NCBI RefSeq assembly: GCF_001651875.1
Contig: NZ_LNQB01000089.1
Location: forward strand, 24,928 to 88,927
DNA: 64,000 nucleotides
Source of the DNA: Sinorhizobium saheli
GTDB lineage: Bacteria > Pseudomonadota > Alphaproteobacteria > Rhizobiales > Rhizobiaceae
Direction of reading: 5' to 3'
Shown: piece by piece, positions 9,211 to 53,763 of the stretch
Position numbering within the stretch: position 1 is the first letter of the stretch
Layout of the letters: each line of letters opens with the position of its first letter
The notes under the pieces: model-generated
The model's database searches: none
Told to the model about the DNA's origin: nothing
What the model saw: only the letters and a program-made list of their open reading frames with translations
Position numbers and translations under genes: made by a program

Positions 9211-10530
9211 CTATTTTTCTTTCATGCTCTTATGGAAGGCGTCGATCAACGGCTTCGCGATATATTGCGCGAAGGTTCGCTCGCCGGTGGAAATGATCAC
9301 ATCAACCGGCATGCCGGCGACCATACGTTCCTTGATCTCTGGGGGCACGTTCTTATCGTCCACACGCACAATAGCTTGGTAATATGGCTCTCTGCTTTTG
9401 CCACTCTCCGGCTGAACGACGTCCTTGCCGAGAACGGAAACCTTACCGTAGATCGCTGGCGTCGTCTTGGCTGAGAACGCAGAGAAGCGCACTTCCACAT
9501 CAGAATCAGCGCCGACATTGTCGATGTCGATCGGCCGGATTTGTGCATCGACGACCAGATCGTCATCAATCGGCACGATGTCGAGAAGTGGTTCAGCCGG
9601 GCGCACGACACCATTTGTGGTGTGGATGCGGATACTCTGGACCATGCCCCGCACGGGGGCGATCACGGTGGTTCTGGACAGTACGTCCCCTGCAACGCGG
9701 AGGCGCTCGCGTACTTCGTCGATCTGATCGCGCACTTCCTTATGCTCCTCGATGGCTCTGTCGGAAAACTCCTGCTTGACCTGGACGATCTGCAGCTCGG
9801 TTTCACCGATCGTTTCACGGATCTTGGTGAGTTCGGTCTCGGCCTCACCACGCACGCGAGACATTTCCAGCATGTTGCGCGTCATCTGTGATAGCCGATT
9901 GACGGGCACCACACCGATCTTTTGGCCGTTGCTCAACCGCCCGATTTCCTCACTCATCGAAGCTATTTGCATGTCGCTGGCGTCAATCTGCTTGGCGAAC
10001 CCTTCGGCCTCCTTGTTGAACTGATGGATACGCGAACTCAAAATGGCCACCTTGCCGTTGCGCGTTTTGATGTGCGATTCTAGGATGTTGCGTTGAAGCG
10101 TCATAGCCACTTTGGCTTCAGGCAGCGGGCTCGTCAGAAGGCTTTCGGGAAAATCAATGTTGCTATCGCCCTTAGCTTCCGTAATCAGGCGCGCCTCCGC
10201 TGTCTGAAGATACAGAAGCTTGGTGCTCAAAACCCTGTAGTTGCCCGCGGCCTGGGTAGGGGCTAGCTTCACCAGCACATCGCCCGGATTAACGATATCT
10301 CCTTCCTTGACAACGATTTCCGAGATGATGCCGCCTTCCAGATGCTGTATTGTCTTGCGATTACCCTCGATCGAAACCACGCCAGGCGCAACGATCCCGC
10401 TGGCGAGTGGCGCGGTTGCCGCCCAGGTTCCCAAGGTACCGCAGCCGAATAGAATTGTAACATATCCGCCCACAACATAGGAACGCGGCGAGAATCTGTT
10501 GCTTTGGGCATGCTCTTTAGTCTTAATCAT
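9211..10530 (-). CDS. Type I secretion membrane fusion protein (HlyD/PrsE family)
   Basis: A 439-residue periplasmic adaptor of a type I secretion system, which links the inner-membrane ABC exporter to an outer-membrane TolC-type channel. One membrane segment lies near residues 20-42 (VVGGYVTILFGCGTLGTWAA). A lipoyl/barrel-sandwich half follows (GIVAPGVVSIEGNRKTIQHL, EGGIISEIVVKEGDIV), then a long alpha-helical hairpin and a second half with RTTVIAPVRGMVQSI. It lies 86 bp downstream of the ABC transporter on the same strand and is probably co-transcribed. No TolC gene is in the window, so a chromosomal one would be used. Confidence 0.9.
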   Translation of the reverse strand: MIKTKEHAQSNRFSPRSYVVGGYVTILFGCGTLGTWAATAPLASGIVAPGVVSIEGNRKTIQHLEGGIISEIVVKEGDIVNPGDVLVKLAPTQAAGNYRVLSTKLLYLQTAEARLITEAKGDSNIDFPESLLTSPLPEAKVAMTLQRNILESHIKTRNGKVAILSSRIHQFNKEAEGFAKQIDASDMQIASMSEEIGRLSNGQKIGVVPVNRLSQMTRNMLEMSRVRGEAETELTKIRETIGETELQIVQVKQEFSDRAIEEHKEVRDQIDEVRERLRVAGDVLSRTTVIAPVRGMVQSIRIHTTNGVVRPAEPLLDIVPIDDDLVVDAQIRPIDIDNVGADSDVEVRFSAFSAKTTPAIYGKVSVLGKDVVQPESGKSREPYYQAIVRVDDKNVPPEIKERMVAGMPVDVIISTGERTFAQYIAKPLIDAFHKSMKEK

Positions 10531-10616
10531 CGGGTTGTCTCAAGCGCTCTTGAAAGGCAAAGAAATATTATAAGACCCAAGGCATGAAGACGAACACGCT
10601 CCACGCTCGCCTTCGC

Positions 10617-12308
10617 TTAATCGGCCGAATGGATGGCCGTGACGGCTGATTTGGGCTGGAGAATGTCGCGCGTTGCGCCGTAGCCTTGCATGCGACCTTG
10701 GGCAAGCACTAGCGTCTTGCCCGACATAGCGATCAGGCTCATCTTGTGGCTAACGAAGAGAACGCTTTTGCCCATGGTCTTCAGCGCCAGAACGACTTGG
10801 TTGAGCGCTTCTTCGCCTTCATCATCGAGGTTAGCATTCGGCTCATCCAGCACGATTACCGAGGGATTTCCGTAGACAGCACGCGCCAGTCCGACGCGCT
10901 GGCGCTGACCGCCCGAAAGCTGCCGCCCCCCAACACCGATTTGGGTGTCGTAGCCGTCAGGCAGGTTCTGGATTAACTGGTGCACACGGGCAAGCTTTGC
11001 AGCCTCGATGATGGCTTCCGGCTTCGCGGCCTCCTGAAAACGGGAGATGTTTTCAGCGATTGTGCCGGAGAACAGCTCAACGTTCTGCGGCAGATACCCA
11101 AAATGTTGGCCAAGCGCGTCAGTTTCCCAATGCTGGAGCTCGGAACCGTCCAAGCGAACAGTGCCGGCGGCCGGCGACCAAATGCCGACAAGAGCACGCG
11201 CTAGGCTGGATTTGCCTGCACCGCTCGGACCGACGATGGCCACCGCCTCACCAGGATTGACTCGGAAGGTAACGCTATGAACCAACGGCGCCTTGGTCCC
11301 GGGAGCCGCAACGGCCAGTTGTTCCACGCTCAGCGTGCCGCTAGGAGTCGGCAAAGAAAGCTTTCTTTGTTCTTCCGGCACTTCTAGAAAGATCTTGCTC
11401 AAACGACCATAGGCTTGACGGGCGCTAACGAACTGCTTCCATTGGCCGACGACCTGATCGACCGGCTGCAGGGCGCGACCCATCATGATAGATGCGGCGA
11501 TTATAGAGCCAGGCGAAATCGCAGCTTCCAGCGCAAGATAGGCTCCGGCACCCAGGATGATGGTTTGCAGACCCATGCGCACGAACCTGGAGATGGACAG
11601 CAACGCGGCGGATCGATCGCTGGCAAGGGCCTGGCTTTCAATCACCTTCCGGTGCAGGGCATTCCACCGTCCGCACAGGCTGTCTTCCATACCGAGCGCG
11701 CGCACAACTTCGACGTTCATGAGAGTAGAGTTGGAGAAGTGGATTGCACCCTGTCCGGCAATCGTTGCTCTGAACAATTCCTTCTTGGTCATGAATTCAT
11801 TAGCGATCGCCAGAGTGAAGACTATAACGGCGCCCCCGGTCGCAATAAATCCGATCAACGGATGAAAAAAGAAACACACGGCTAGGAAGATCGGCATCCA
11901 CGGGAGGTCGCAAAGCGCAACCAGTCCGTAACCGGTCAGGAACTCTCGCAGGCGATCGATATCCATAAGGGCGAATTCGGACCGGCCCTGAGGATGCCTG
12001 AGGGTAGAGGTGATGACACGGCTGAAGACGCCTGTGGCGATCATCTCATCAAAGCGCATACCAGCCCGCATCAGCACCCGGGAACGAATCCATTCGAGCA
12101 GGTTACAAAGTGCAAGCATCGTCAGCGCAATCAAAGTCAGCATCATTAACGTCATTTCGTTACGGCTGTGAAGTACTCGATCGTAAACCTGCAGCATGTA
12201 AAGGGGACTGACGAACATCAGAACGTTGATCACGATGCTAAAGCTCATGGTCGCAACAATGATCGTTCGGTACGTGGCTAAAGCCTGTCTGAACGGGTTT
12301 GCTTTCAT
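10617..12308 (-). CDS. Type I secretion ABC transporter/ATPase (PrtD/PrsD family)
   Basis: The start chosen is the ATG at 12308, preceded by a strong GGGAGGAT ribosome site; this gives 563 residues and begins MKANPFRQALATYRT. The frame is open further upstream but without a better site. An N-terminal six-helix membrane domain (from about residue 20, with SPLYMLQVYDRVLHSRNEMT) is followed by an ATP-binding domain. That domain has Walker A GPSGAGKSS, signature LSGGQRQRVGLARA and Walker B VIVLDEPNANLD. Like PrtD/HasD/PrsD exporters it lacks a C39 peptidase domain. It exports proteins with C-terminal uncleaved signals, most plausibly the RTX protein encoded just upstream. Confidence 0.92.
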   Translation of the reverse strand: MKANPFRQALATYRTIIVATMSFSIVINVLMFVSPLYMLQVYDRVLHSRNEMTLMMLTLIALTMLALCNLLEWIRSRVLMRAGMRFDEMIATGVFSRVITSTLRHPQGRSEFALMDIDRLREFLTGYGLVALCDLPWMPIFLAVCFFFHPLIGFIATGGAVIVFTLAIANEFMTKKELFRATIAGQGAIHFSNSTLMNVEVVRALGMEDSLCGRWNALHRKVIESQALASDRSAALLSISRFVRMGLQTIILGAGAYLALEAAISPGSIIAASIMMGRALQPVDQVVGQWKQFVSARQAYGRLSKIFLEVPEEQRKLSLPTPSGTLSVEQLAVAAPGTKAPLVHSVTFRVNPGEAVAIVGPSGAGKSSLARALVGIWSPAAGTVRLDGSELQHWETDALGQHFGYLPQNVELFSGTIAENISRFQEAAKPEAIIEAAKLARVHQLIQNLPDGYDTQIGVGGRQLSGGQRQRVGLARAVYGNPSVIVLDEPNANLDDEGEEALNQVVLALKTMGKSVLFVSHKMSLIAMSGKTLVLAQGRMQGYGATRDILQPKSAVTAIHSAD

Positions 12309-12722
12309 AGAGACATCCTCCCCCCGCTTCAACGCTCGCCCCATACTCACGGATTCACGATGCTTACACGAGGACCGATCACCTTGTGCTGCATCGATGA
12401 CCATACGCAGCGACTTAAACTCGGCCACTGGCCACCAGGCGCCGACCGCATTCGCTCGCCGCTCATCGCGAGGGGCAAAGCTCCGCTTAAAAAACTCTGT
12501 GCGTATCGCGCATAGCCTCACCCGCGCAAACGCGCGTAGCTGGCCGCCGACGTTCGACCGAAAAAGATAATCGTCCGCGGCTGCTGCGGCCATGCAATCG
12601 AAATAACAACAGCTGAGCGGAGCTTGAACTACCGACGAGCGACCAGCCTAAGTCTTCGACCGCGGTCAGTTGCACGCGCCGGTGTCTTTCACCTGCCGCC
12701 CACTCAAGCAGAGGCCGCAGAA

Positions 12723-12761
12723 GGAAGCGTACCGTGCCGGGGTGGGCACGGCACGGCTTCC
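12723..12761 (-). terminator. Strong hairpin after the RTX gene
   Basis: A nested dyad pairs GGAAGC with GCTTCC on the outside and CCGTGCC with GGCACGG inside, with a 6-base loop. It starts about 12 bp after the RTX gene stop. There is no clear U-run, so it may be a processing or stability element, or an attenuator between the substrate gene and its exporter, rather than a classic terminator. Confidence 0.45.
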
Positions 12762-12773
12762 GATCACTACGAA

Positions 12774-13529
12774 TCAGGTGAAGATGAAATTGTCCCGAGA
12801 AAAGAACTGTTCGGACGTGTCCTCCACGTTTGACAGCTGGGCAAACGGGTGGGCATGGTCTTCTGAGTCAACATAGGCTAGTATAACAGAGCCGTATTGA
12901 TCATCGTTGTACACAATGATATCGCCTGGCTTCTCATTGTTTACGGAGGCAGCAGCCTCGCTGCTATCGCCAAAGCTTTGATCAGTGAGCACCAAGACAT
13001 GCTCCCCGTTTGCGTCGGCGGCTCGCCCTTGGAAGAAGGTGTCAGCTGCGCCACCCAGGCCGCCGGTGGAGTGGTTGACGAAGTTGCCATCGGCACTCAT
13101 GCTGCCGAGAAGATCCTTGGCGTCGAACACAAACTTGTCTTGCCGCGCATCGAAATCCGCGATTTGGACAGGCTGCACACTCCCCTCGGTCTTCGGGTCA
13201 TGATACCGGAAAAGAAAGCGGTCCTTGCCGGCGCCACCTGTCATCAGATCGTGCCCGTCACCAGCCACAAGATAATCGTCTCCTGGGCCGCCATCGAGAA
13301 CGTCATTGCCCGCCACGACTTTATCGCGTGGTACATTGACTGTTGAGTCGCTAAAGAGGGTATCATCGCCCTCCTGTCCGAACAGCAGGTCACTGCCTCC
13401 ACTGCCGATTACGATATCGTCGCCGGCGCCCGCGTAGACGGTGTCGTTGCCATCGCGGGCGTCGATGGACTCACTTTCGGGCGTGCCGATCATTTTTTCA
13501 CTTTGGTCGGTACCGGAAATCCAGATCAT
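12774..13529 (-). CDS. RTX calcium-binding secreted protein, NodO-like
   Basis: A 251-residue acidic protein without an N-terminal signal peptide. Residues about 20-120 hold glycine/aspartate-rich nonapeptide repeats of the GGxGxDxUx type: DARDGNDTVYAGAGDDIVIG, SGGSDLLFGQEGDDTL, DGGPGDDYLVAGDGHDLMTG. These form a Ca2+-binding beta-roll. The C-terminus ends in hydrophobic residues (DNFIFT), as in type I secretion signals. The exporter genes lie directly downstream on the same strand. Size, repeats and symbiotic context resemble NodO, which is secreted through PrsDE and promotes infection; NodO identity is inference. Confidence 0.8.
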   Translation of the reverse strand: MIWISGTDQSEKMIGTPESESIDARDGNDTVYAGAGDDIVIGSGGSDLLFGQEGDDTLFSDSTVNVPRDKVVAGNDVLDGGPGDDYLVAGDGHDLMTGGAGKDRFLFRYHDPKTEGSVQPVQIADFDARQDKFVFDAKDLLGSMSADGNFVNHSTGGLGGAADTFFQGRAADANGEHVLVLTDQSFGDSSEAAASVNNEKPGDIIVYNDDQYGSVILAYVDSEDHAHPFAQLSNVEDTSEQFFSRDNFIFT

Positions 13530-15625: not shown

Positions 15626-15641
15626 TGTCGGTTCGGCGACA
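15626..15641 (+). promoter_or_regulatory. NifA upstream activator sequence for nifH
   Basis: TGT-N10-ACA (tgtcggttcggcgaca), the NifA-binding consensus. It lies about 90 bp upstream of the -24 element, within the usual range for enhancer binding with IHF-assisted looping. Confidence 0.88.
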
Positions 15642-15682: not shown

Positions 15683-16726
<1,044 letters not shown>

Positions 16727-23874: not shown

Positions 23875-24125
23875 CGGTCGATTCGGCAATAATGAATCGT
23901 CGACCCTCACGCCCCTCGAGGGCCGACGTGGGCAGCGGGGCTGATCTCCCCATTACTCCCGGTCCCGCTGCCCTCACTGCACCGAACCTGAGGCGCCAAC
24001 ACATGCCTAGGTGCTGTGATGCCCCACCGATGACCAGCAGATCGCCCGGATAAGCTAGGAGCTCAACAACAACATTGGACGGCACCGGGTTTGGACGGGT
24101 GAGGTCATGTCAGATTTTGGAAAGT
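23875..24125 (+). repeat. Left copy of a segment duplicated downstream of DUF269
   Basis: The sequence after the first DUF269 gene matches, with many changes, the sequence at about 25253-25512. Shared blocks include gccgacgt-ggcagcggggc, ggtcccgctgcc, gatgcct and gatcagcaga-cgccc, ending in tgaggtcatgtcagat versus tgagattatgtccgat. Similarity stops at about 24125. On the other copy the sequence runs on into fdxB. This supports a tandem duplication of the nif block with later deletions. Confidence 0.7.
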
Positions 24126-24640
24126 TTTCTGTGCTGTGCGCATGAGGGCATAACGTTGGTTTCCCGCAAACCAACGTTAGGGGGCCTCAAATTACGAACA
24201 CCTAACGCAATGCGCGTTGAACTTTCGTTTGGGTGGATTCTGGAATCAGGCAGGCGGCCTCTCCAGACAGGAGCGGTCATTCACGACCGTTCCACGTCAA
24301 CTGCATCCTAGGCTCAGCAAGACCTACGAACTGTTCACGGCGAGCGTTTTTTCAACGAGCGGTTTCCACCCTCACCGCCCTCCAAGTCTTTACGCGGCGA
24401 ATTTACGCCCAGGTTTTGGTTGCAGTCGGCGGCTGCACGCGTTTCGCGGGGCGGGCGAGTATACGATAGGGCTGCGATGCGCGCCCTGCCTTAGCCTCCT
24501 TCAAAAGACGGAATATCGCCGAAAGATCAAGACCGAACTCGTAAATCGGAAGATGAAGTTGGTTGCGAAAGCATTGTTATCGGCACCGACCTGCCGGCGA
24601 GGAGCAATGTGTAGCGATCCAAACAGTCGCATCGACAGTT
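24126..24640. other. Non-coding stretch with a perfect inverted repeat
   Basis: No gene is supported here. The clear structure is a 12-bp perfect inverted repeat with 5-base loop at 24151-24179 (taacgttggttt / aaaccaacgtta). No U-run follows. It could end the nifHDKENX transcript or be a transposon scar at the duplication joint. Open frames across it show no family features. Confidence 0.5.
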
Positions 24641-24656
24641 TGTCGGTTCAGCGACA
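24641..24656 (+). promoter_or_regulatory. NifA upstream activator sequence, second copy
   Basis: TGT-N10-ACA (tgtcggttcagcgaca), differing from the nifH site at 15626 by one base. It is part of a duplicated nifH regulatory region. Confidence 0.88.
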
Positions 24657-24741
24657 CAAGCTCGTTTACCAAACTCTTGTTTGCCTCTGAAAAAAGGACT
24701 GAAAAGCAGCAACAAACTCCTTTTTAGCTCCCGCAGCCAAC

Positions 24742-24756
24742 TGGCACGAGTCTTGA
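24742..24756 (+). promoter_or_regulatory. Sigma-54 promoter, second nifH-type copy
   Basis: tggcacgagtcttga matches -24/-12 spacing (TGGCAC-N5-TTG). The distance to the NifA site is like that of nifH. The leader and ribosome site (acgaaggaaagtgac) before the ATG at 24819 are also kept, so initiation here should be NifA-dependent. Confidence 0.85.
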
Positions 24757-24818
24757 AGACATTCCTTTGAGAGGCGGCGAAAGCTGCCAATCAGTACGTA
24801 TCAACGAAGGAAAGTGAC

Positions 24819-25252
24819 ATGGTAGGTCTGCGTCAGATCGCATGCTGCTGCAAGGAGCGCATGGGCACGTGCACCATCACCCCCAAGTACGCTCACCGCC
24901 CTTGTCGCCCTTGGACCGAGGATGCATATCGTCGGCCGCGACAGGAGGATCGACTCAAGCCACCTCATCCTGGACTCGAAGGCGCAGGACTGGGCGGCAG
25001 CACCCTGCGACCACGATCGTCGGCGGTTCCGACCCTTGCTACATCGCCGTCGCGCCCGCGATGCGCGCACCGGCGGGTGGCTTCGCGGACTATGATGAGG
25101 AGGCACGAGGGCTTCGGGATGCCCGGACCTGGCCGTATTCACCGACGCCCACCGGTTGGGCTTCGAGAGGCTTCGGAAGCTCGCCGGAGACCGGGGCGAA
25201 ACTGGTCGACAATGCAATTACCCCCATCCATGGGTATCCCGGCGTGGCGCGG
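24819..25252 (+). pseudogene. Collapsed nifH'-'DUF269 remnant
   Basis: It begins MVGLRQIA like nifH (MAGLRQIA), then drifts and shifts frame. In the second frame LTALVALG and LILDSKAQD match nifH codons up to about 59 ([17 protein letters not shown]). From about 25010 the sequence instead matches the DUF269 gene, ending GAKLVDNAITPIHGYPGVAR. A deletion has thus joined the nifH start to the DUF269 end, removing nifDKENX from this copy. The P-loop is destroyed (CCKERMGTC), so no Fe protein can be made. A 223-codon frame does run through it. Confidence 0.85.
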
Positions 25253-25571
25253 GCGAAGGTCGACCCACGCGATGAAAAACCTTCCGGTCCTCCCGTTCTC
25301 CCGGGGGGGCCGACGTCAGGCAGCGGGGCCACTCCTCCCCATGCCCACCGGTCCCGCTGCCGCGACCGTTCCAAAGGACGAGGCTCGAAGATGCCTCGGC
25401 ACGTTTTTTCAAGGGCCCACCAATGATCAGCAGACCGCCCCCGATAAGCTGGACAGGGTTGCCGGCGGACGGGACCGTTTTGATGGATGAGATTATGTCC
25501 GATCCTGGAAGACATTGACGTTTTTTGCGGTTGGCCGCTGCCGAGAGAGAGCCTGCGTTGGAGAACTTACG

Positions 25572-25889
25572 ATGACAATTCATTTCTTTACCCGCGATGG
25601 CTCGAGATGGATCCCGGAATATCTGACGGCGATTGATGCCATGACCTGCATTGGTTGCGGCCGCTGCTTCAAGGTCTGCTCGCGCGAGGTCATGCACCTG
25701 CACGGCATTAACGAACTGGGTGAAATCCTTGGTATCTGCGATGGCGAGGACGACGACTTCGATGGCGAGCTCAATCGTATGATCATGATTGTCGACTACG
25801 CCGGCCGCTGCATCGGCTGCGGAGCCTGCGCCCGCGTCTGCCCGAAGAACTGCCAAACCCATGTCGCGGCTGACAAGATTGTTGCTTAA
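25572..25889 (+). CDS. fdxB: Nif-specific ferredoxin III (FdxB)
   Basis: A 105-residue ferredoxin with two [4Fe-4S] sites: CIGCGRCFKVC near residues 30-40, and CIGCGACARVCPKNC near the C-terminus. It is a likely electron carrier for nitrogenase or cofactor synthesis. The start is the ATG at 25572 after GGAGAACTTACG. It is the first intact gene behind the second nifH-type promoter. Its end overlaps the next gene by 29 bp. Confidence 0.93.
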   Translation: MTIHFFTRDGSRWIPEYLTAIDAMTCIGCGRCFKVCSREVMHLHGINELGEILGICDGEDDDFDGELNRMIMIVDYAGRCIGCGACARVCPKNCQTHVAADKIVA

Positions 25890-26148
25890 TCTGACGGACG
25901 AACCGGGAGCGGCGTTGCGCTTCAGAATATTTTGTCGCGTCCTGCAATTGGTCGTGTGCGCCAACGCTCTAACGGTCTACTTCGTCTCGCATTCGGTCCC
26001 CAGAGTGATCATTTCCACGTTGGGTACTTCGCTGCTTCTTCAAGTTGCCTACTTCGGAAGTGTACTTATTCTGGTTTGGCGAGCTAAGTGCAATCGCAGA
26101 GCTGTCGAAAGGACCGGAAAGAGAACGTCTGACTCTGACTATTCCTAG
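25861..26148 (+). CDS. Small SyrA/ExoX-like membrane protein, copy 1
   Basis: A 95-residue protein from the ATG at 25861, overlapping the fdxB end. It has two hydrophobic stretches (VLQLVVCANALTVYFVSHSV and LGTSLLLQVAYFGSVLILVW) followed by basic residues. This layout and the LLQVAYFGxVLxLV pattern resemble the SyrA/ExoX family of small membrane proteins that modulate exopolysaccharide production. Function here is inference. A diverged paralogue is at 26987. Confidence 0.65.
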   Translation: MSRLTRLLLNLTDEPGAALRFRIFCRVLQLVVCANALTVYFVSHSVPRVIISTLGTSLLLQVAYFGSVLILVWRAKCNRRAVERTGKRTSDSDYS

Positions 26149-26271
26149 TGCGCATGGCTGGAAATGCATTTTGCATGATTGGGGGACGGTTATCTCGGGC
26201 TAGCATGGGGCCGTGCCCGAGGAACAATGGAGAGATAGAGCAAAGGTGCGTGAAGAATGAGGACTGGAACG

Positions 26272-26757
26272 ATGGCAACACTATCTGATCCCACTGTTAT
26301 CCCGGTTCTTGGCGACAACAAAGCCGTTGCCACTCCTTTTATCAAGTGCCTGGTGCGGTTAATCCGCGGCCAGGATTGCTACGGGTCGTGGAAGGAGAAG
26401 TGCGACGCTGACCTGCTCGCCTACTTTACCGTCCCCGAGGAAAAGCGCTGTGCGATTCCAATCATAGGCGATCCCGATCCGGGCGTTCTGTGGCGGCTCG
26501 ACATGTTTTACCGGGCCGTCGGTGTCTCTGTCGAGGAGCGCTCCGGCCTGCTGATATCGCGGACCATGGAAATCAACCATGAGGGTTTCGGGCGCGTGCT
26601 TTTTACGACCAGACGGCTAGTCGTTCTGTCGAAAACCCTGCGTGACGTTCACCGGTTTGGCTTCAGTACTCTCCGCAAACTCGCCAAAACGGGCGCGAAG
26701 CTGGTCAACGATGCGGCCCGAGTTATCGAGGCTTATCCGGATGTGGCACGGGCCTAA
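26272..26757 (+). CDS. NifX-associated protein (DUF269), copy 2
   Basis: 161 residues from the ATG at 26272 (MATLSDPTVIPVLG); an in-frame ATG at 26257 is possible. The core is very like copy 1: [77 protein letters not shown]. It is intact and on the plus strand between two SyrA/ExoX-like genes. It is probably a functional second DUF269 protein expressed from the second nif-type promoter. Confidence 0.9.
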   Translation: MATLSDPTVIPVLGDNKAVATPFIKCLVRLIRGQDCYGSWKEKCDADLLAYFTVPEEKRCAIPIIGDPDPGVLWRLDMFYRAVGVSVEERSGLLISRTMEINHEGFGRVLFTTRRLVVLSKTLRDVHRFGFSTLRKLAKTGAKLVNDAARVIEAYPDVARA

Positions 26758-26986
26758 TGAACCTACGTTCGAGGGCAAATATCACGCCAGAGCCTGAAGA
26801 CATCAGGACGACGGTTCGAAAGCTGCAGTTGCGTGTTGTAATTGCAAAGATGGTATCGCACGACCATGCCAGGCTTTTGCGACCGACTGAAGCGAAATCA
26901 TGGCCGTCGCCTCGGCAAAACGTTTGCAGCTATTGCTCGGGAGATGCTGCCGAAGTGCCAAACAGATCAAGAACCAGGAAAACCGC

Positions 26987-27283
26987 GTGCCCTTCAGAAA
27001 CTCTCCGCGAATCTTTTGCTTGCTTCTGTGCGCCAATACTCTGGCCATGCATGTTATCTCGCATCCCATTCGCAGCTTATTTGCTAAGACACTCGCCTAT
27101 TCGCTGCTCCTTCAGATAGCTTATATCGGAAGTCTCTTCCTTCTGGTCTGTCTGGCCGTGTTCGCACAAATGTTCAAAGGGCTGAACATTTTGGTCTTTT
27201 CAACCGCGCGTAATTCCCTTCGTCGTTACACAAAGCCAAAGCGTAGCGTTCGCCCCGGAGCCAGCCGCATGGGCCAAGGTTGA
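26987..27283 (+). CDS. Small SyrA/ExoX-like membrane protein, copy 2
   Basis: From a GTG at 26987 (AGGAA 7 bp before) the product is about 98 residues. It has two hydrophobic segments, RIFCLLLCANTLAMHVISHP and LAYSLLLQIAYIGSLFLLVC, which parallel copy 1 (IFCRVLQLVVCANALTVYFV, LLLQVAYFGSVLILVW). The in-frame region upstream of the GTG shows no family similarity. It ends 54 bp before the halogenase gene. The start is uncertain and the C-terminal tail is poorly conserved. Confidence 0.55.
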   Translation: MPFRNSPRIFCLLLCANTLAMHVISHPIRSLFAKTLAYSLLLQIAYIGSLFLLVCLAVFAQMFKGLNILVFSTARNSLRRYTKPKRSVRPGASRMGQG

Positions 27284-27337
27284 CCGAGAAGAACGCGGCT
27301 TTGCCAACACAATCGGAAAATTACGACGGTAACGTGA

Positions 27338-28852
27338 ATGATTGATTTGACGAACGCAAAGCGGGTAGGAATTATCGGCGGGGGAATTGTTGGCTGGCTT
27401 GCGGCGATTACGTTGGCCCGTGTTTTCGGCTCAGATGTGGATGTCACCGTCATAGAGGCTCCGGCGGTATTTCCACTTGGCCTGGGGGAGGGGGGCTCGC
27501 CTAACCTCATTGACACGTTGTGTCGTAATGATCTCGATTTGGACGTTTTCATCGGTGAAGCCGGTGCCAACTATAAGCATGGTGTGCTCTATGACAATTG
27601 GCTGGGCAGGGGAGTTCCAGACCGCTATTATCACTTGTTCGGCGGACGAGGCATTCCGGGGCTCGAATATCGCGTCAACGGCTTCTTCCCTCGGCTGTCC
27701 GCGAGGATCGCGATGGGACAGGACCTTCACACGTGCATCCCCGGGTTTAAGGCGATCGCGAGGAATGCATCGCAGCAGGAAATAGACGAGTTGGTCGCGA
27801 CCGGCGAGTCCGGTCTCTACCTGTCCTACCATTTCGATGATGCCGATTTCGAGCGATACCTGAAGCGGGTTGGCCTGGCACGTGGGGTCACTTCATACGC
27901 CGCCAAAGAATGTTGGATTAGGCTTGATGATCGAGGCCATGTGTGCGCCTTACAGCTTCAGGGCGAGCAATTCAAGGTCGACTTTGCCGTCGACGCCTCA
28001 GGGTTGGCAAGAATGGGTCTCGGCAGTGCCTTTAAGCCCGGTTGGCGTTCATTCGCAAGTGTATTGCCAACAGACCGAGCAATAACCTTTGATCTTCAGC
28101 CGAAAGAATCTTCGCTTCGATCCCTGACCCGTTCGACCGCCATGACAGCCGGATGGACCTGGGAGGTTCCATTGAATCGCACCACCAGCGCCGGCTGTGT
28201 GTTCAGTAGCAGACATGCAGACGATTCGATGGTGATGGCGGAGGTCCAGCACCGCTTTGGATACGGTGTCCAGCGAAAACATGAGCTTTCGTTCGATCAA
28301 GGCTATTTCGAAACCGTCTGGGTCAACAACCTCGTAGCACTCGGAACGGCTACCGGTTTCGTCGAGCCCCTGGGGGCCGCGCTTGCCGCCCACACCTTCG
28401 AGCAATTGAGGAATTTGGAACGCACTCTCACCAACGGAGGCGGAATCGTGCCAGCTCATGCGATTGAGGCTTTCAACAGCGCGAACGCAAAGAGTTGGAC
28501 AGGCGTTCGGGACTTCCTGCGCCTGCATTATGATTCGAAAAGGAACGACACGCCTTTCTGGCGAGATCTCAGTGAGGCCGATTTACCGAAGAGTTATGCC
28601 GAGCTAAGGGCCTGCTTTCAAAAACGCACACCCCGCCATATCGATATCGAACCCTACGTCGGAAGCGGGTGGCAAAGCCTATTCCATCAGATCGATTGGA
28701 TATCGGTGGCGGCCCCTCTGGGGGTGGTGCCGGCGGCGGCGGCGCGTGCAGAGCTCAGCCAGCTCCCCTTGGAATGGCAATGCGAGGACCATCCCGATCT
28801 GCTGGAAGGAGCGATGTCGACGATCCGACCACGGAGTGGATGGGTACACTAA
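27338..28852 (+). CDS. Flavin-dependent halogenase (tryptophan-halogenase family)
   Basis: 504 residues. It has an FAD-binding GIIGGGIVGW at residues 11-20. The catalytic Lys lies in ANYKHG at residue 80, the position of Lys79 in PrnA. The family signature GWxWxIP appears as GWTWEVP near residue 272, with GTATGFVEPLGAALAAHTFE later. Such enzymes make HOCl or HOBr from FADH2, O2 and halide, and halogenate an aromatic ring. They need reduced FAD; a flavin reductase gene lies at 32934. It ends a plus-strand gene series starting at fdxB. Substrate preference (tryptophan or another aromatic) cannot be told. Confidence 0.88.
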   Translation: MIDLTNAKRVGIIGGGIVGWLAAITLARVFGSDVDVTVIEAPAVFPLGLGEGGSPNLIDTLCRNDLDLDVFIGEAGANYKHGVLYDNWLGRGVPDRYYHLFGGRGIPGLEYRVNGFFPRLSARIAMGQDLHTCIPGFKAIARNASQQEIDELVATGESGLYLSYHFDDADFERYLKRVGLARGVTSYAAKECWIRLDDRGHVCALQLQGEQFKVDFAVDASGLARMGLGSAFKPGWRSFASVLPTDRAITFDLQPKESSLRSLTRSTAMTAGWTWEVPLNRTTSAGCVFSSRHADDSMVMAEVQHRFGYGVQRKHELSFDQGYFETVWVNNLVALGTATGFVEPLGAALAAHTFEQLRNLERTLTNGGGIVPAHAIEAFNSANAKSWTGVRDFLRLHYDSKRNDTPFWRDLSEADLPKSYAELRACFQKRTPRHIDIEPYVGSGWQSLFHQIDWISVAAPLGVVPAAAARAELSQLPLEWQCEDHPDLLEGAMSTIRPRSGWVH

Positions 28853-28914
28853 GTGCAATGGCGAGAGGGGGCCCCGCTAGCAAGCGGCGACACGTAGCAC
28901 ACCATGAGAACTGT

Positions 28915-29886
28915 TCAAGTCTGATGAAATGCATTGTCAAACCCGCCCGGTCTTGGACGTCCGGCGGCCTTAGTCGGAGCAGTCATGCGGCCGGCCTCCT
29001 GTAGCAGAATCTCTTGCATCCATATGCTTGCCTGATCTCTGTTGTGATGGGCTGGCCACTGGACAGCCATGGTAAATACTGGAAGTGGCAGCGGGAGCTC
29101 GACGATCCGTAAGGGAATTGTCTTTGCGAAATGACGGGCGAGCCGCAAGGGTATGGTCGCTATACGCTCGGTCCCTAACAGCAGCGGCGGGATCAAGCTG
29201 AAGCCGGGCGCGACGACCTCGATGCGCCTCTTTAGACCGTGCTCGAGCAAAAACCAGTCTTCGATGGAGGGCTTCAGCGCACGCCCGAACTTGGCTGCAA
29301 CATGCCCCATCGACAGGTATTTTTCGAGGGAAAGCTGCTGTGGCAGTCGTTTGTTCGTGGGGCAGCCCACGCAGACGAGCGTCTCATCGAATAGTCTTGC
29401 TTGGGGATGCGCGTTAGACAAGAACTGTTCAGGAAGGATTAGGAAATCGACTTCACCGCGCCCGAGTAGCTCATTGGGTTCATCATCGGGAAACATCAAT
29501 TCGAAGGCGACGGCTGGAGCTTCCCGAACCACACGCTCTACGATCTTTTCAAAGAAAACAAGTGTCACGAAATCGGACACGATGATTCTGAAACGTCGCT
29601 CCGACATGGCAGGGTTGAACATGTCGCATGAAATAATGGAAAACTGAATATGGAGCAGGACATCGCGGACCGCGGGGGCAAGGGCTTTGGCACGCGGAGT
29701 TGGGATGAATTTGCGGCCCTGCATTGTAAACAGGTCATCGCCGAAATAGATGCGTAGCCGCGCGAGGGCAGAACTCATCGCCGGCTGACTGAGGTTAACG
29801 CTACGTGCCGCTGCGGTGACGCTTCGTTTAGTCATCAGAGCATCGAGCGCAACGAGGAGGTTGAGATCAAGGCCCTTAAAACGCAT
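28915..29886 (-). CDS. nodD: LysR-type nodulation regulator NodD
   Basis: 323 residues, closely matching the NodD pattern: [20 protein letters not shown], then helix-turn-helix [40 protein letters not shown] and the effector domain with [20 protein letters not shown]. It senses plant flavonoids and activates nod operons at nod boxes. It is transcribed on the minus strand; a degenerate nod box lies only about 10 bp upstream of its start. No nodABC genes are in the window. Which nodD paralogue it is cannot be decided here. Confidence 0.93.
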
Positions 29887-29942: not shown

Positions 29943-30568
29943 AATGACGCCGTCCGCCACGGCACTCGGGGCCAGTCACGGGTCTCTATGCAACCACGAA
30001 ACAGACATGAGGCGCTTAGTAGCACCCAACATGGCGTGTCTTAGACATCTCGCGCGAATGGGCGCATCGACCGCAACATGGCCGCGTCACTTTGATCGCA
30101 GCTGATCGCATCGATCATTTTTACGGCAATACCATTGCGTGGCTGGCTAGGCACCCGCGCCTCAGGTCCAGCGTATGGCCGCCTTGGTGCGTCAGCTCGG
30201 CGGCAGAGCACGCCGCCGCCATTTGCGCGTCCCACAGTGCACTGCTAAATCGCATCATCTTTGTTGGACGTGGCACCGGGCTGCAACTTCGTGAATGCAT
30301 CGGTGGGATCTCTCTCCGGTAAATGAATGGAAGGAGATCCTAGTGCTTGCCGGCGTTCCCTTGCCATGCAAACTGCAAATCCTAACATGCGCTTCGGATA
30401 TGGTTGAGGAACTCTTTGCACGGAAATGCCGCGAAACAGCGCTGGCACAGGGCTCATAATAAGCCCGCTGGCGCGACGCAGGTCCTGAGCGTCGGAGGTG
30501 AGGGGCTGTTGCGCGCTGCGTGCCTGTAGTTGAGCGAGCATAGTAGATCAGAGCATGACAACGAATGT
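29943..30568. other. Non-coding region between nodD and a nod box
   Basis: No gene is supported. Short open frames on both strands show no family features, and the longest minus-strand frame (30255-31004) runs over a nod box and a LysR gene start. It may hold decayed sequence that once followed the nodD-proximal nod box. Confidence 0.4.
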
Positions 30569-30615
30569 ATCCATGGCATGGATGAAAGCCATGCGAAAAC
30601 TCAATTTCCCCACTC
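30569..30615 (+). promoter_or_regulatory. Nod box upstream of a LysR gene
   Basis: atccatggcatggatgaaag then ccatgcgaaaactcaatttc fits the nod-box consensus (ATCCA...TGGATG...GCCATCC-AAC-ATC-ATTT) with few mismatches. It points at the LysR-type gene starting at 30996, about 380 bp downstream. NodD-controlled regulators of this kind (for example SyrM in other rhizobia) are known. Confidence 0.7.
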
Positions 30616-30995
30616 TCGCGGAATTCGACTAGAAAGCGTTCGCAAATCGCAGGCAAAGGTGGAAATTCAGACACACGGCAGCCCAAGAGGCACTGTGGCA
30701 GAGGGAACATGATTGGCAATCCGGGCGTCCAATGAAGTGAGATCAGGGAACGAATATAAGTGGGGCATATCTCGGGCATGCTGTTTTGCGGCTTGAGCTT
30801 AAACTCAAGTTTGGAGTGTGGACGCCCGCGCAATGGCCATACCGGGCCGGACGCTTGAACGCATCGCCATAGCCTAAGTGCGTCCAACCGACCCGCAGTT
30901 CGTAACCGTACGAAAGGCAGAGGAAGGTTTTCTTGACCCCTCTCACAACGGCCAAGGGTGTGGCCCGAGAACATTATTCTCCGAGGAGAGAAATC

Positions 30996-32009
30996 ATGGA
31001 TCACTCCGTTTGGAAGGGGTCACATTCGATCATCGTTGACAGTGACGCCGCACAGCAACGGCGGATGCCGAGCCTGGCATCAATCGACCTGAACCTGCTG
31101 GTGGAACTCGAAGCGCTATTGCAGTACCGAAACATCACGCACGCGGCCCAACACGTCGGCCGAAGTCAACCGGCAATGAGCCGAGCGTTGTCAAGACTGC
31201 GTGGCATGTTCAACGACGATCTTTTGGTTCGCGGCTCGCGCGGCTTGGTCCCGACGCCGCAGGCCGAACGCCTGGCCAAAATGCTGCCGTCTGTATTGAA
31301 GGCGGTCCGGGAGATGGTGAATTGCAGCTCAACCCCAAGAGACATGCGCTGGAAGGCAACAATCGCGATGCCCGATCACCAAGCGCTAATTTTGCTGCCG
31401 CGTCTATTGCCGCGTCTGCACGAGTGCGCGCCTCATCTCGACATTGTTACCAACCCGCTCTTGGGCTGCGCACTGCGGCGGCTTGAGCAAGGTGAGATCG
31501 ATTTAGCCGTCGGGCAGATCGGAGCCGCACCGCCGGGCTTCTTGCGGCGCAAGCTTTACGCGGACCACTTCACCTGCCTGCTACGCCACGACCACCCGGT
31601 GCTAGAGCAAGAGTGGAGCACAGAAAGCTTCGCTGAGTTGCGCCACGCCTCCATCGTATCAGACTCCAATGATCGCTTCGGTCAAGTCTATGACGGGCTG
31701 TTCGAGCTGGGGCTATCGGACCGTCATCCGATCGTGGTCTCCAACGTGCTGACGGCGGCTGTAGTCATTGCGGCGACCGATCTGGTCTTACTCGTACCGC
31801 ATCGTGTCGCGACCCGGATCGCCACCATGCTGCCGCTCGCGGTTGTCGATCCTCCCGTGCAACTGACGCCATATGAGGTTGCGTTGATCTGGCACGAGCG
31901 TTCGCATCGTGACCCGAAATATCATTGGCTCCGCCACGAAATCGCTGCGGCAGCGCGGCCTGGCCGGAACGCGCCGGACGCCAAATCAATTGGGGAGGAG
32001 ACTGAATGA
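30996..32009 (+). CDS. LysR-type transcriptional regulator (NodD/SyrM-like)
   Basis: 337 residues from the ATG at 30996, which has GAGGAGAG upstream; an earlier in-frame start at 30933 has no such site. The N-terminal winged helix reads SIDLNLLVELEALLQYRNIT, then HAAQHVGRSQPAMSRALSRL and DDLLVRGSRGLVPTPQAERL. The effector domain follows from about residue 110. The organisation resembles the NodD/SyrM/NahR subgroup. A nod box upstream suggests NodD control, making this a second-tier symbiotic regulator. No specific orthologue is claimed. Confidence 0.85.
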   Translation: MDHSVWKGSHSIIVDSDAAQQRRMPSLASIDLNLLVELEALLQYRNITHAAQHVGRSQPAMSRALSRLRGMFNDDLLVRGSRGLVPTPQAERLAKMLPSVLKAVREMVNCSSTPRDMRWKATIAMPDHQALILLPRLLPRLHECAPHLDIVTNPLLGCALRRLEQGEIDLAVGQIGAAPPGFLRRKLYADHFTCLLRHDHPVLEQEWSTESFAELRHASIVSDSNDRFGQVYDGLFELGLSDRHPIVVSNVLTAAVVIAATDLVLLVPHRVATRIATMLPLAVVDPPVQLTPYEVALIWHERSHRDPKYHWLRHEIAAAARPGRNAPDAKSIGEETE

Positions 32010-47900: not shown

Positions 47901-48572
47901 ATGCAGCATGAAGATCTGACCCGATCCACTACCCCCCGCTTCGCTCGGAAAGCCGGCGTTTCGGGCGATCTGTCTGGAGCAACGTCGATGGCCACGGCCG
48001 TATTCCGGATCTACGACTTGTCGCTTGATCGCTCCTTGAGCAGCCGCAACGCGCACCTAGCGCGCGAACAAGCGATCGCTGTCGATGACTTGCTGGAGTA
48101 CAACAGCTTTGCTCCCGTCGGTCATGAGGGCGGCCCCTATTGCCTCAACCTCGCATTGGCAGATGCCCGCCTGGCGCTGCAGATCACCACGGAGCAAGGA
48201 GTGCATGTGGGGAGGCACCACTTGTCGCTCACTTCGCTGCGTCGGCTGTTCAAGGACTACTTCCTGATCTGCGAAAGCTATAACGATGCCTTGACACGCC
48301 CGAACCCGCAAAGGCTCGCAGCGATCGACAGGGGCCGCCGGGCAATTCATGACGACGCCTCGGAACTGCTTCGAGAGCGGCTCGCATCGACTGTGGCTGT
48401 TGACAAAAACACTGCTCGGCGGCTGTTCTCATTGCTCTATGCGCTCATCGCGGACCGCTATCCCTCATCGGTTCCAAAAGCGCCACAACCCGGTCTGCGG
48501 AAGCTCTGCACCGGTTCCGGAATGGGCATCGACATCTGCATGGAAGCATCGCGAGCGGAGCGACCTCGATGA
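47901..48572 (+). CDS. UPF0262 family protein, copy 1
   Basis: Conserved rhizobial protein of unknown function. The UPF0262 core starts at about residue 30 (MATAVFRIYDLSLDRSLSSR, possibly the true start at 47988). It includes HLAREQAIAVDDLLEYNSF, GHEGGPYCLNLALADARLAL and SLRRLFKDYFLICESYNDA, then IDRGRRAIHDDASELL and TARRLFSLLYAL. The usual length is about 160 residues, so the longest frame is extended at both ends. Its stop overlaps the next UPF0262 gene by 4 bp. Confidence 0.8.
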   Translation: MQHEDLTRSTTPRFARKAGVSGDLSGATSMATAVFRIYDLSLDRSLSSRNAHLAREQAIAVDDLLEYNSFAPVGHEGGPYCLNLALADARLALQITTEQGVHVGRHHLSLTSLRRLFKDYFLICESYNDALTRPNPQRLAAIDRGRRAIHDDASELLRERLASTVAVDKNTARRLFSLLYALIADRYPSSVPKAPQPGLRKLCTGSGMGIDICMEASRAERPR

Positions 48573-49138
48573 CCGCAGCAGCGTACCGACTGTGCCATGT
48601 GACGCTCGATGGCTCGTTCAGCAGTCGCAACGCGCACTTGGAGCGGGAACGCGCCATTGCCGTTTACGACCTGCTCGAGGAAAACGCCTTCATTCCTGTC
48701 GGCCACGACGGCGGGCCCTATCGTCTCAGCCTCGCCTTGGCTGGTGCACGCTTGGCGCTGCACATCTCCACAGAGGCGGGAGCGCACGTCATGAGCCATT
48801 ACCTCTCGCTCGCTCCGTACCGGCGTCTCCTCAAGGACTATATCCTGACCTGCGAGAGTTTCTACGACGCCATACCGCACGCGAGCGCCGCCAGGTTCGA
48901 AGCGATCGACATTGGCCGCCGTGCCATTCACAACGATGCCGCCGAGCTGCTGAGGCAGCGGCTCGGCGGCAAGGTAACCGTCGACAGCGATACAGCCCGA
49001 CGGCTGTTTACGCTGATCTACGTGCTGCTCATGCGAAGGCCCTCGATCGCGCTCTCGAATGATGAAAACGAAGGCCTAGGATCGCGCCGGAAGCTAGCAC
49101 CCGGTCGCGGTTTGATTACCAGGGAGCATAGCGGATGA
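48569..49138 (+). CDS. UPF0262 family protein, copy 2
   Basis: 189 residues. Core segments: [107 protein letters not shown]. It overlaps copy 1 and the following AraC gene (ATGAGTG) by 4 bp each, so the three are probably translated together. Function is unknown. Confidence 0.83.
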
Positions 49139-52899: not shown

Positions 52900-53215
52900 T
52901 TCTCCAGCCTCGCAGGGCCACTCGGCTGCCGTCGAACAGGTCCCGACGGCAGCCACTTTTTCTTCGGTTGTTTGCAATGGTGTCCGTGCCACTGCGTGGC
53001 CACTGGCGGCGCCTCGCCAGGACAATCCCCGTGGCGCCGACGTTCGGAAGCGACAGCACAGCGATAAGGACCGGCTCTGGTTTTCGCGTCGAAGTCGGGG
53101 GACGAGGTTTTCGACCGTATTTTCCTTTTGCCCAGCCTCCCAGGGCAAAGTGGCTGTCGCCGAACCCGTTCCGGCGGCAGCCACGTCTTGTGTTTCCTCC
53201 GACAGGATCGGTCGC
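52900..53215. repeat. Two related hairpin-bearing repeats
   Basis: The first unit (about 52905-52975) has cagcctcgcagggcca and ggctgccgtcg / cgacggcagcc. The second (about 53125-53200) has cagcctcccagggcaa and tggctgtcgccg / cggcggcagcca. They are diverged direct repeats about 220 bp apart, each centred on an 11-13 bp dyad. They resemble intergenic mosaic palindromes common in rhizobial genomes. Frames through them on both strands show the repeat in the peptide but no family. Confidence 0.6.
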
Positions 53216-53253
53216 GCGGATGTGGTCGACACTGTTCCGAGGCGGGGTGCGCG

Positions 53254-53763
53254 TTGACCTGCACGAGCACCCCGCCATCCCGGTTTCGTCTTTCAGCTAT
53301 TTCGCTGGACCCGCCTTTTGGCGGCCGGATGGATGCAGCACACAAGCACGAGCAAGCTGTCGCCATTTTCGACCTCCTGGAAGCCAACAGGTTCGCTCCG
53401 GTCGAGCATGGCGGTGGTCCCTACCGGCTGCACCTTGAATTGGCGGACCGGCGACTGGTGATGTCGGTCACCACCGAGACCGGCGCGCTGGTCCTCTGCC
53501 ATCACCTCTCGCTGACGTCATTTCGCCGACTGCTCAAGGACTACACGCTTGTCTGCGAAAGCTTCACCAACGGCGCGGCACGGCTGCCGCCCGATCGGTT
53601 GGAAGCCATCGACATGGGGCGCCGCGCGATCCACAACGAGGCCTCCGCCCTGCTACGCGAACGTCTCAAATCCAAGGTCGAGATCGATGAGGAGACGGCC
53701 CGCCGACTGTTCACGCTGATCCATCTGCTGGTTTCGCAGACACTGCCCGCAGGGGTCGATTGA
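53254..53763 (+). CDS. UPF0262 family protein, copy 3
   Basis: About 169 residues from a TTG at 53254, the point that gives the usual family length; the open frame extends to 53128 without similarity. Segments: [100 protein letters not shown]. It lies 170 bp upstream of traR. The closest relatives in the window are copies 1 and 2. Function is unknown; the start is uncertain. Confidence 0.75.
   Translation: MTCTSTPPSRFRLSAISLDPPFGGRMDAAHKHEQAVAIFDLLEANRFAPVEHGGGPYRLHLELADRRLVMSVTTETGALVLCHHLSLTSFRRLLKDYTLVCESFTNGAARLPPDRLEAIDMGRRAIHNEASALLRERLKSKVEIDEETARRLFTLIHLLVSQTLPAGVD

Follow-up and report, generated by a model that had tools for sequence, protein, structure and literature searches.

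Genistein acts through NodD1 to induce the operon psfHH103d_306-311 of Sinorhizobium fredii HH103, which carries a putative SyrM box at positions -127 to -62 of psfHH103d_306 and ends in gene 311, a 'partial tryptophan halogenase' with a log2 fold change of 3.6 in the presence of genistein (PMC4990936). A review repeats this finding (PMC5793154), SyrM has been stated to be required in HH103 for two operons with a well-defined box (PMC10771577, 2023), and in S. meliloti SyrM activates nodD3 and syrA (PMC8227245). A search of the literature on rhizobial halogenases together with NifA, bacteroids, nodules or nod boxes returned only the HH103 paper and the review as relevant, judged by titles and the beginnings of abstracts; candidate NGR234 gene names for this region led to none that was relevant. 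Here we analyzed a stretch of 64,000 nucleotides from Sinorhizobium saheli (contig NZ_LNQB01000089.1, positions 24,928 to 88,927 of the forward strand; hereafter the window, in whose coordinates all positions are given), which carries an intact gene for a flavin-dependent halogenase family protein of 504 aa (27338..28852, plus strand) downstream of the nif genes. A first-pass annotation of the window had proposed that a second nifH-type promoter drives both fdxB and the halogenase. This held for fdxB. For the halogenase, our results point to two separately switched regulatory units, one with fdxB under NifA and one with the halogenase under SyrM, an arrangement that we consider probable on sequence evidence. 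An operon with a putative SyrM box and a halogenase at its end is already known from HH103, of which the present locus appears to be a further case.

The locus reads, in order, nifHDKENX, DUF269, the second nifH-type promoter, a nifH/DUF269 stub, fdxB, SyrA-like 1, a second DUF269 gene (DUF269-2), a DUF683 remnant, SyrA-like 2 and the halogenase, beyond which follow nodD2/3 (minus strand) and syrM (plus strand) homologues. In the interval from fdxB to the halogenase, where by the first-pass annotation's own criterion an independent promoter would refute its proposal, we detected at the level of sequence a SyrM-box-like element (26137..26202, plus strand, core 26153-26178, the outer ends being placed after the published HH103 box). 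It was found as a block common to the upstream regions of DUF269-2 homologues, from which a search pattern was derived. Allowing at most 3 mismatches, this pattern matched the window at 2 sites, where 0.02 would be expected, and the 6-Mb genome at exactly 2 (5.99 Mb, the assembly covered by all whole-genome motif counts), one before DUF269-2 and one before the nodD2/3 homologue (core 30364..30389, minus strand), with 0 in the control. As in a SyrM-regulated operon, an upstream box is accompanied by a syrM gene in the genome. This syrM homologue (31065..32009, plus strand; 71% to S. meliloti SyrM; open reading frame (ORF) from 30933, start inferred) lies 2.2 kb beyond the halogenase and is the sole close homologue in the genome, the next best reaching 29-31%.

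The pair of boxes also occurs in S. alkalisoli, NGR234, S. garamanticum, S. numidicum and IRBG74 (3-4 mismatches in the weakest), and the pattern is found upstream of S. meliloti nodD3 as well. At least one match with at most 3 mismatches was present in 28 of the 33 genomes of our genus survey, several of them elsewhere and probably due to chance. The NGR234 core begins 111 bases before DUF269, consistent with the -127 to -62 position of the putative box in HH103. We infer that HH103 306-311 is the homologue of the halogenase unit, given its gene number and product and the distance of the box in the NGR234 copy. Their likeness comprises a halogenase in last position and a putative SyrM box at a matching distance, along with NodD1/genistein induction and SyrM dependence of boxed operons in HH103 (PMC4990936, PMC10771577), whereas the halogenase is called partial in HH103 (PMC4990936). 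By analogy, we infer that this strain would behave like HH103. In the NGR234 copy, taken as the HH103 homologue, the halogenase follows nifK2, whereas here the box comes after an fdxB unit that has a NifA promoter of its own.

Halogenase matches at a threshold of 1e-20 were obtained in 15 of the 33 genus genomes, nine in which a single frame is open for most of the length (diverged at the C-terminus in G407) and six broken; the gene is also broken in G071, a member of another genus. Adding G071 and dropping G412, whose contig lacks upstream sequence, and G257, whose halogenase lies away from nif genes, left 14 usable loci. A SyrM-box-like element stood upstream of the halogenase and on its strand in all 14. 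Since the pattern was drawn from six of them (the window, S. alkalisoli, NGR234, S. garamanticum, S. numidicum and S. sojae), the independent fit is 8 of 8. The fdxB promoter was present in only 5 of the 14, and in NGR234 it sits in a different nif copy from the halogenase.

That promoter comprises a NifA upstream activator site (UAS; TGT-N10-ACA, TGTCGGTTCAGCGACA, 24641..24656) and a sigma-54 -24/-12 element (TGGCACGAGTCTTGAA, 24742..24757), both on the plus strand and just where the first-pass annotation had placed them, ahead of a dead nifH stub; a further TGT-N10-ACA lies at 24610-24625 on the same strand. The promoter had been called almost identical to that of nifH, which is true of its motifs (15/16 letters shared with the nifH UAS at 15626, and 14/16 with the nifH element TGGCACGGGTCTTGTA at 15733) but not along its whole length. 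Taken singly, neither pattern was strongly above chance in comparison with shuffles (UAS, 5 found against 2.15 expected; -24/-12, 2 against 0.42). The two at the spacing proper to a NifA/sigma-54 operon (TGTC-N8-GACA, 70-100 bases, TGGCAC-N5-TTG) occurred five times in the genome, against none for the reversed-pattern control. The stub (24803..24990, plus strand) is 77% identical to the start of nifH (15817-16003), and from it continues a DUF269 (NifX-associated) remnant in two pieces (25059-25114 and 25143-25361, plus strand), which, like the SyrM-box-like element, was absent from the earlier account. Next come fdxB, encoding the nif-specific ferredoxin III (25572..25889, plus strand; TIGR02936, 2e-39), and SyrA/ExoX-like 1 (25915..26148, plus strand; frame 25789-26145 matching PF11089 at 2.7e-11; TTG start presumed from the homologue in S. 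garamanticum). Among the survey genomes, 30 of 33 had an fdxB match above the cut-off, and nifA is on the same contig as the fdxB unit.

Similar promoters precede fdxB in S. alkalisoli, NGR234 nif copy 1 and CCBAU 83666, and the same type with a nifH stub does so in G045, G408 and G071. In S. alkalisoli the stub region aligns as DNA and was missed by the protein-level search. Promoter and stub are also kept in G397, G403 and G396 (loci L087, L088 and L090), where the halogenase is only a remnant. Because it stands before fdxB across relatives, even in the latter three, the promoter goes with fdxB, and the prediction that fdxB is driven by NifA and sigma-54 is well supported. Candidate NifA sites for fdxB in Rhizobiales have also been listed (PMC4999443). 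The S. meliloti fdxB-syrA-nodD3-syrM region (L056) shares the surrounding gene order but differs in that fdxB lacks an exactly matching UAS or -24/-12 element upstream and that the searched locus holds no halogenase remnant. Rhizobia have reiterated nifH promoters, such as P1-P3 of S. meliloti; the nifH-type promoter with a truncated nifH copy is the same here, with the difference that it precedes fdxB.

Domain searches bore out the plus-strand string of fdxB, SyrA-like, DUF269, SyrA-like and halogenase genes (TIGR02936, PF11089, PF03270, PF11089 and PF04820). The short gaps ascribed to it do not hold throughout: 581 bp, partly DUF269 remnant, separate the nifH stub from fdxB, 108 bp enclosing the promoter-like element separate SyrA-like 1 from DUF269-2, and 229 bp lie between DUF269-2 and SyrA-like 2. 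DUF269-2 (26257..26757, plus strand; PF03270, 9.9e-43) probably starts at ATG 26272 by homology. It is followed by the DUF683 (CCE_0567) remnant (26814..26910, plus strand; 77% over 98 bp to the S. garamanticum gene) and by SyrA/ExoX-like 2 (26987..27283, plus strand; GTG start inferred), whose frame 26900-27280 matches PF11089 at the cut-off (1.5e-5).

The protein encoded by the last gene of the string is covered by PF04820 over residues 9-469 (1.3e-114) and carries the GxGxxG flavin motif as GGGIVG and a WxWxIP-type motif as WTWEVP, with Val for Ile. In flavin-dependent halogenases, a lysine and a glutamate of the active site have catalytic roles. The lysine is kept (YKHGVLYDNW aligned to YKLGIRFENW of PyrH), whereas Gly346 stands opposite the PLE/PIE glutamate (PyrH E354, counted from the alignment). 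This was so in 5 of 5 printed alignments to solved structures (9luq, 6y1w, 9ltb, 2wet and 2wes), which represent four enzymes because 2wet and 2wes are both PyrH. These distant halogenases resemble the protein for most of its length (phmmer, 144-175 bits). An AlphaFold2 model of the window protein had a mean pLDDT of 58.

Among relatives, Gly was found at this site in the intact copies of the window and G045 and in the broken ones of S. alkalisoli and G071, Asp in S. garamanticum and S. numidicum, and Gln in G257 and G415. Six fredii-type copies have Glu, as do four of five more distant family members in a motif scan and the fifth, G323, by alignment; in NGR234 the gene is intact and bears Glu. 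Gly copies group together in the tree, along with a G408 fragment that lacks the site. The ratio of non-synonymous to synonymous substitution rates (dN/dS) of the intact Gly pair was 0.27 (95% bootstrap 0.20-0.36), with intervals overlapping those of two Glu-bearing pairs (0.21 and 0.24); the close pair S. garamanticum-S. numidicum gave 0.67 at a dS of 0.05. Constraint therefore persists on the intact Gly pair, with no demonstrated relaxation. The lone homologue of G257 (62%; L067, 7089-8609) has Gln and Arg in place of the catalytic Glu and Lys, and its neighbours look MBOAT- and FkbH-like by eye.

Decay of the gene recurs among relatives. Remnants of approximately 220-230 bp lie between SyrA2 and nodD2/3 in G396, G397 and G403, and traces were found in G418 (weak, E 0.005) and IRBG74 (71 bp). 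DUF269-2 was matched at full length in the first four of these genomes and not in IRBG74; the halogenase has therefore been lost where its operon neighbours persist. Matches at 1e-20 were present in 18 of the 394 genomes drawn across the family, with identities of no more than 42% in 13, and a scan of the genome contigs found only three distant halogenase loci (28-29%). A distant homologue (approximately 41-42%) was also seen in the small-genome family member G072 (L076, 3792-13724), between ORFs of 793 aa and 1914 aa that by eye resemble repeat adhesins.

Under separate control by NifA and SyrM, NifA and sigma-54 acting at 24641-24757 would transcribe fdxB and SyrA-like 1, supplying ferredoxin during nitrogen fixation; this unit would be the leftover of a nif operon that was duplicated and then lost its nifH and DUF269 by decay. 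SyrM, itself probably induced by NodD and flavonoids via a nod-box-like site (30569..30616, plus strand), would bind at 26137-26202 and transcribe DUF269-2, SyrA-like 2 and the halogenase-family gene, and the second box would drive the nodD2/3 homologue (28915..29886, minus strand; 76% to both S. meliloti NodD3 and NGR234 NodD2). The halogenase-family gene would then be expressed mainly early and in response to root signals, to which read-through from the nif genes in bacteroids may add. We also looked for a nod box immediately ahead of the halogenase operon and rejected this possibility, since no site reached at least 27 of 40 positions within 24000-29000.

Several observations weigh against control by SyrM or limit what it explains. 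The pattern to which the window core has 2 mismatches was itself drawn from these loci and relatives, and it fits the S. meliloti syrA box poorly (5 mismatches); the nod-box-like site before syrM matches only 33 of the 40 positions scored in what we take to be the nod box consensus. In 2016 the function of the SyrM box was still to be demonstrated (PMC4990936); the names 306 and 311 and the word halogenase were not found in a search of the main text of PMC10771577; and HH103 induction is uninformative about enzyme function because the halogenase there is called partial. Moreover, all 14 loci have nif genes ahead of the box and the halogenase in the same orientation, and terminator-like sites are no more numerous than expected by chance, so that read-through in bacteroids is possible and could even dominate there. 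If the fdxB promoter were the main driver of the whole string, the halogenase would be a bacteroid gene. Such a role would suit the shared plus strand, the strength of the promoter motifs as a pair, the lack of excess terminators and the fact that in S. garamanticum, S. numidicum and NGR234, too, the halogenase follows nif genes. However, a separate conserved SyrM-box-like element lies at 26153, 9 of the 14 halogenase loci are without the fdxB promoter, this promoter survives where the halogenase is a remnant, and the apparently matching HH103 operon is genistein-induced in free-living cells (PMC4990936), all of which makes NifA very unlikely as the main driver. Conceivable, though less likely than not, is a stronger form of separate control in which both inputs are important, SyrM early on the root and nif read-through later in the nodule, as would fit the nif genes ahead of every box and the fdxB promoter upstream in 5 of the 14 loci.

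A further alternative concerns the protein and is compatible with control by SyrM, namely that the gene is vestigial, its ORF being a late survivor of decay and its product without useful function. Breakage in 6 of the 15 matching genus genomes and in G071, the remnants in G397, G403 and G396, the 71-bp trace in IRBG74 and Gly in place of the catalytic Glu in four copies, two of them broken, favour this possibility. Yet the window and G045 copies are intact and their dN/dS is well below 1 and overlaps that of Glu-bearing pairs, and we regard a wholly vestigial gene as somewhat unlikely. Because Gly replaces the catalytic Glu and the gene has been lost repeatedly, the protein is probably of weak or altered activity in this lineage, and its function in this strain is doubtful. 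Loss of this residue under purifying selection in two intact copies could also mark a repurposed halogenase-fold flavoenzyme in the flavonoid/SyrM circuit, acting on a compound of early symbiosis, for example a flavonoid or an indole/auxin, a speculation that we judge distinctly unlikely.

With SyrM as the probable switch, a puzzling halogenase would shift from an assumed role in nitrogen fixation to the plant-signal stage, where its substrate is to be sought. The locus also illustrates how reiterated nif copies may leave promoters and remnants that mislead operon reading. Likewise, the natural series of Glu, Asp, Gln and Gly at one active-site position, within one family and mostly at one locus, offers material for testing the role of this residue.

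Past syrM, the window carries a gene with a flavin reductase domain (PF01613, 32925-33473) that has a 92% homologue in G394; no pairing with the halogenase is claimed, since the genome carries five such domains. Upstream of nifH, ORFs at 9211-13529 appear by eye to be HlyD-like, ABC transporter and calcium-repeat proteins, possibly a type I secretion set. Finally, three ORFs that look similar to one another by eye (47901-48572, 48569-49138 and 53128-53763) form a small repeated family.

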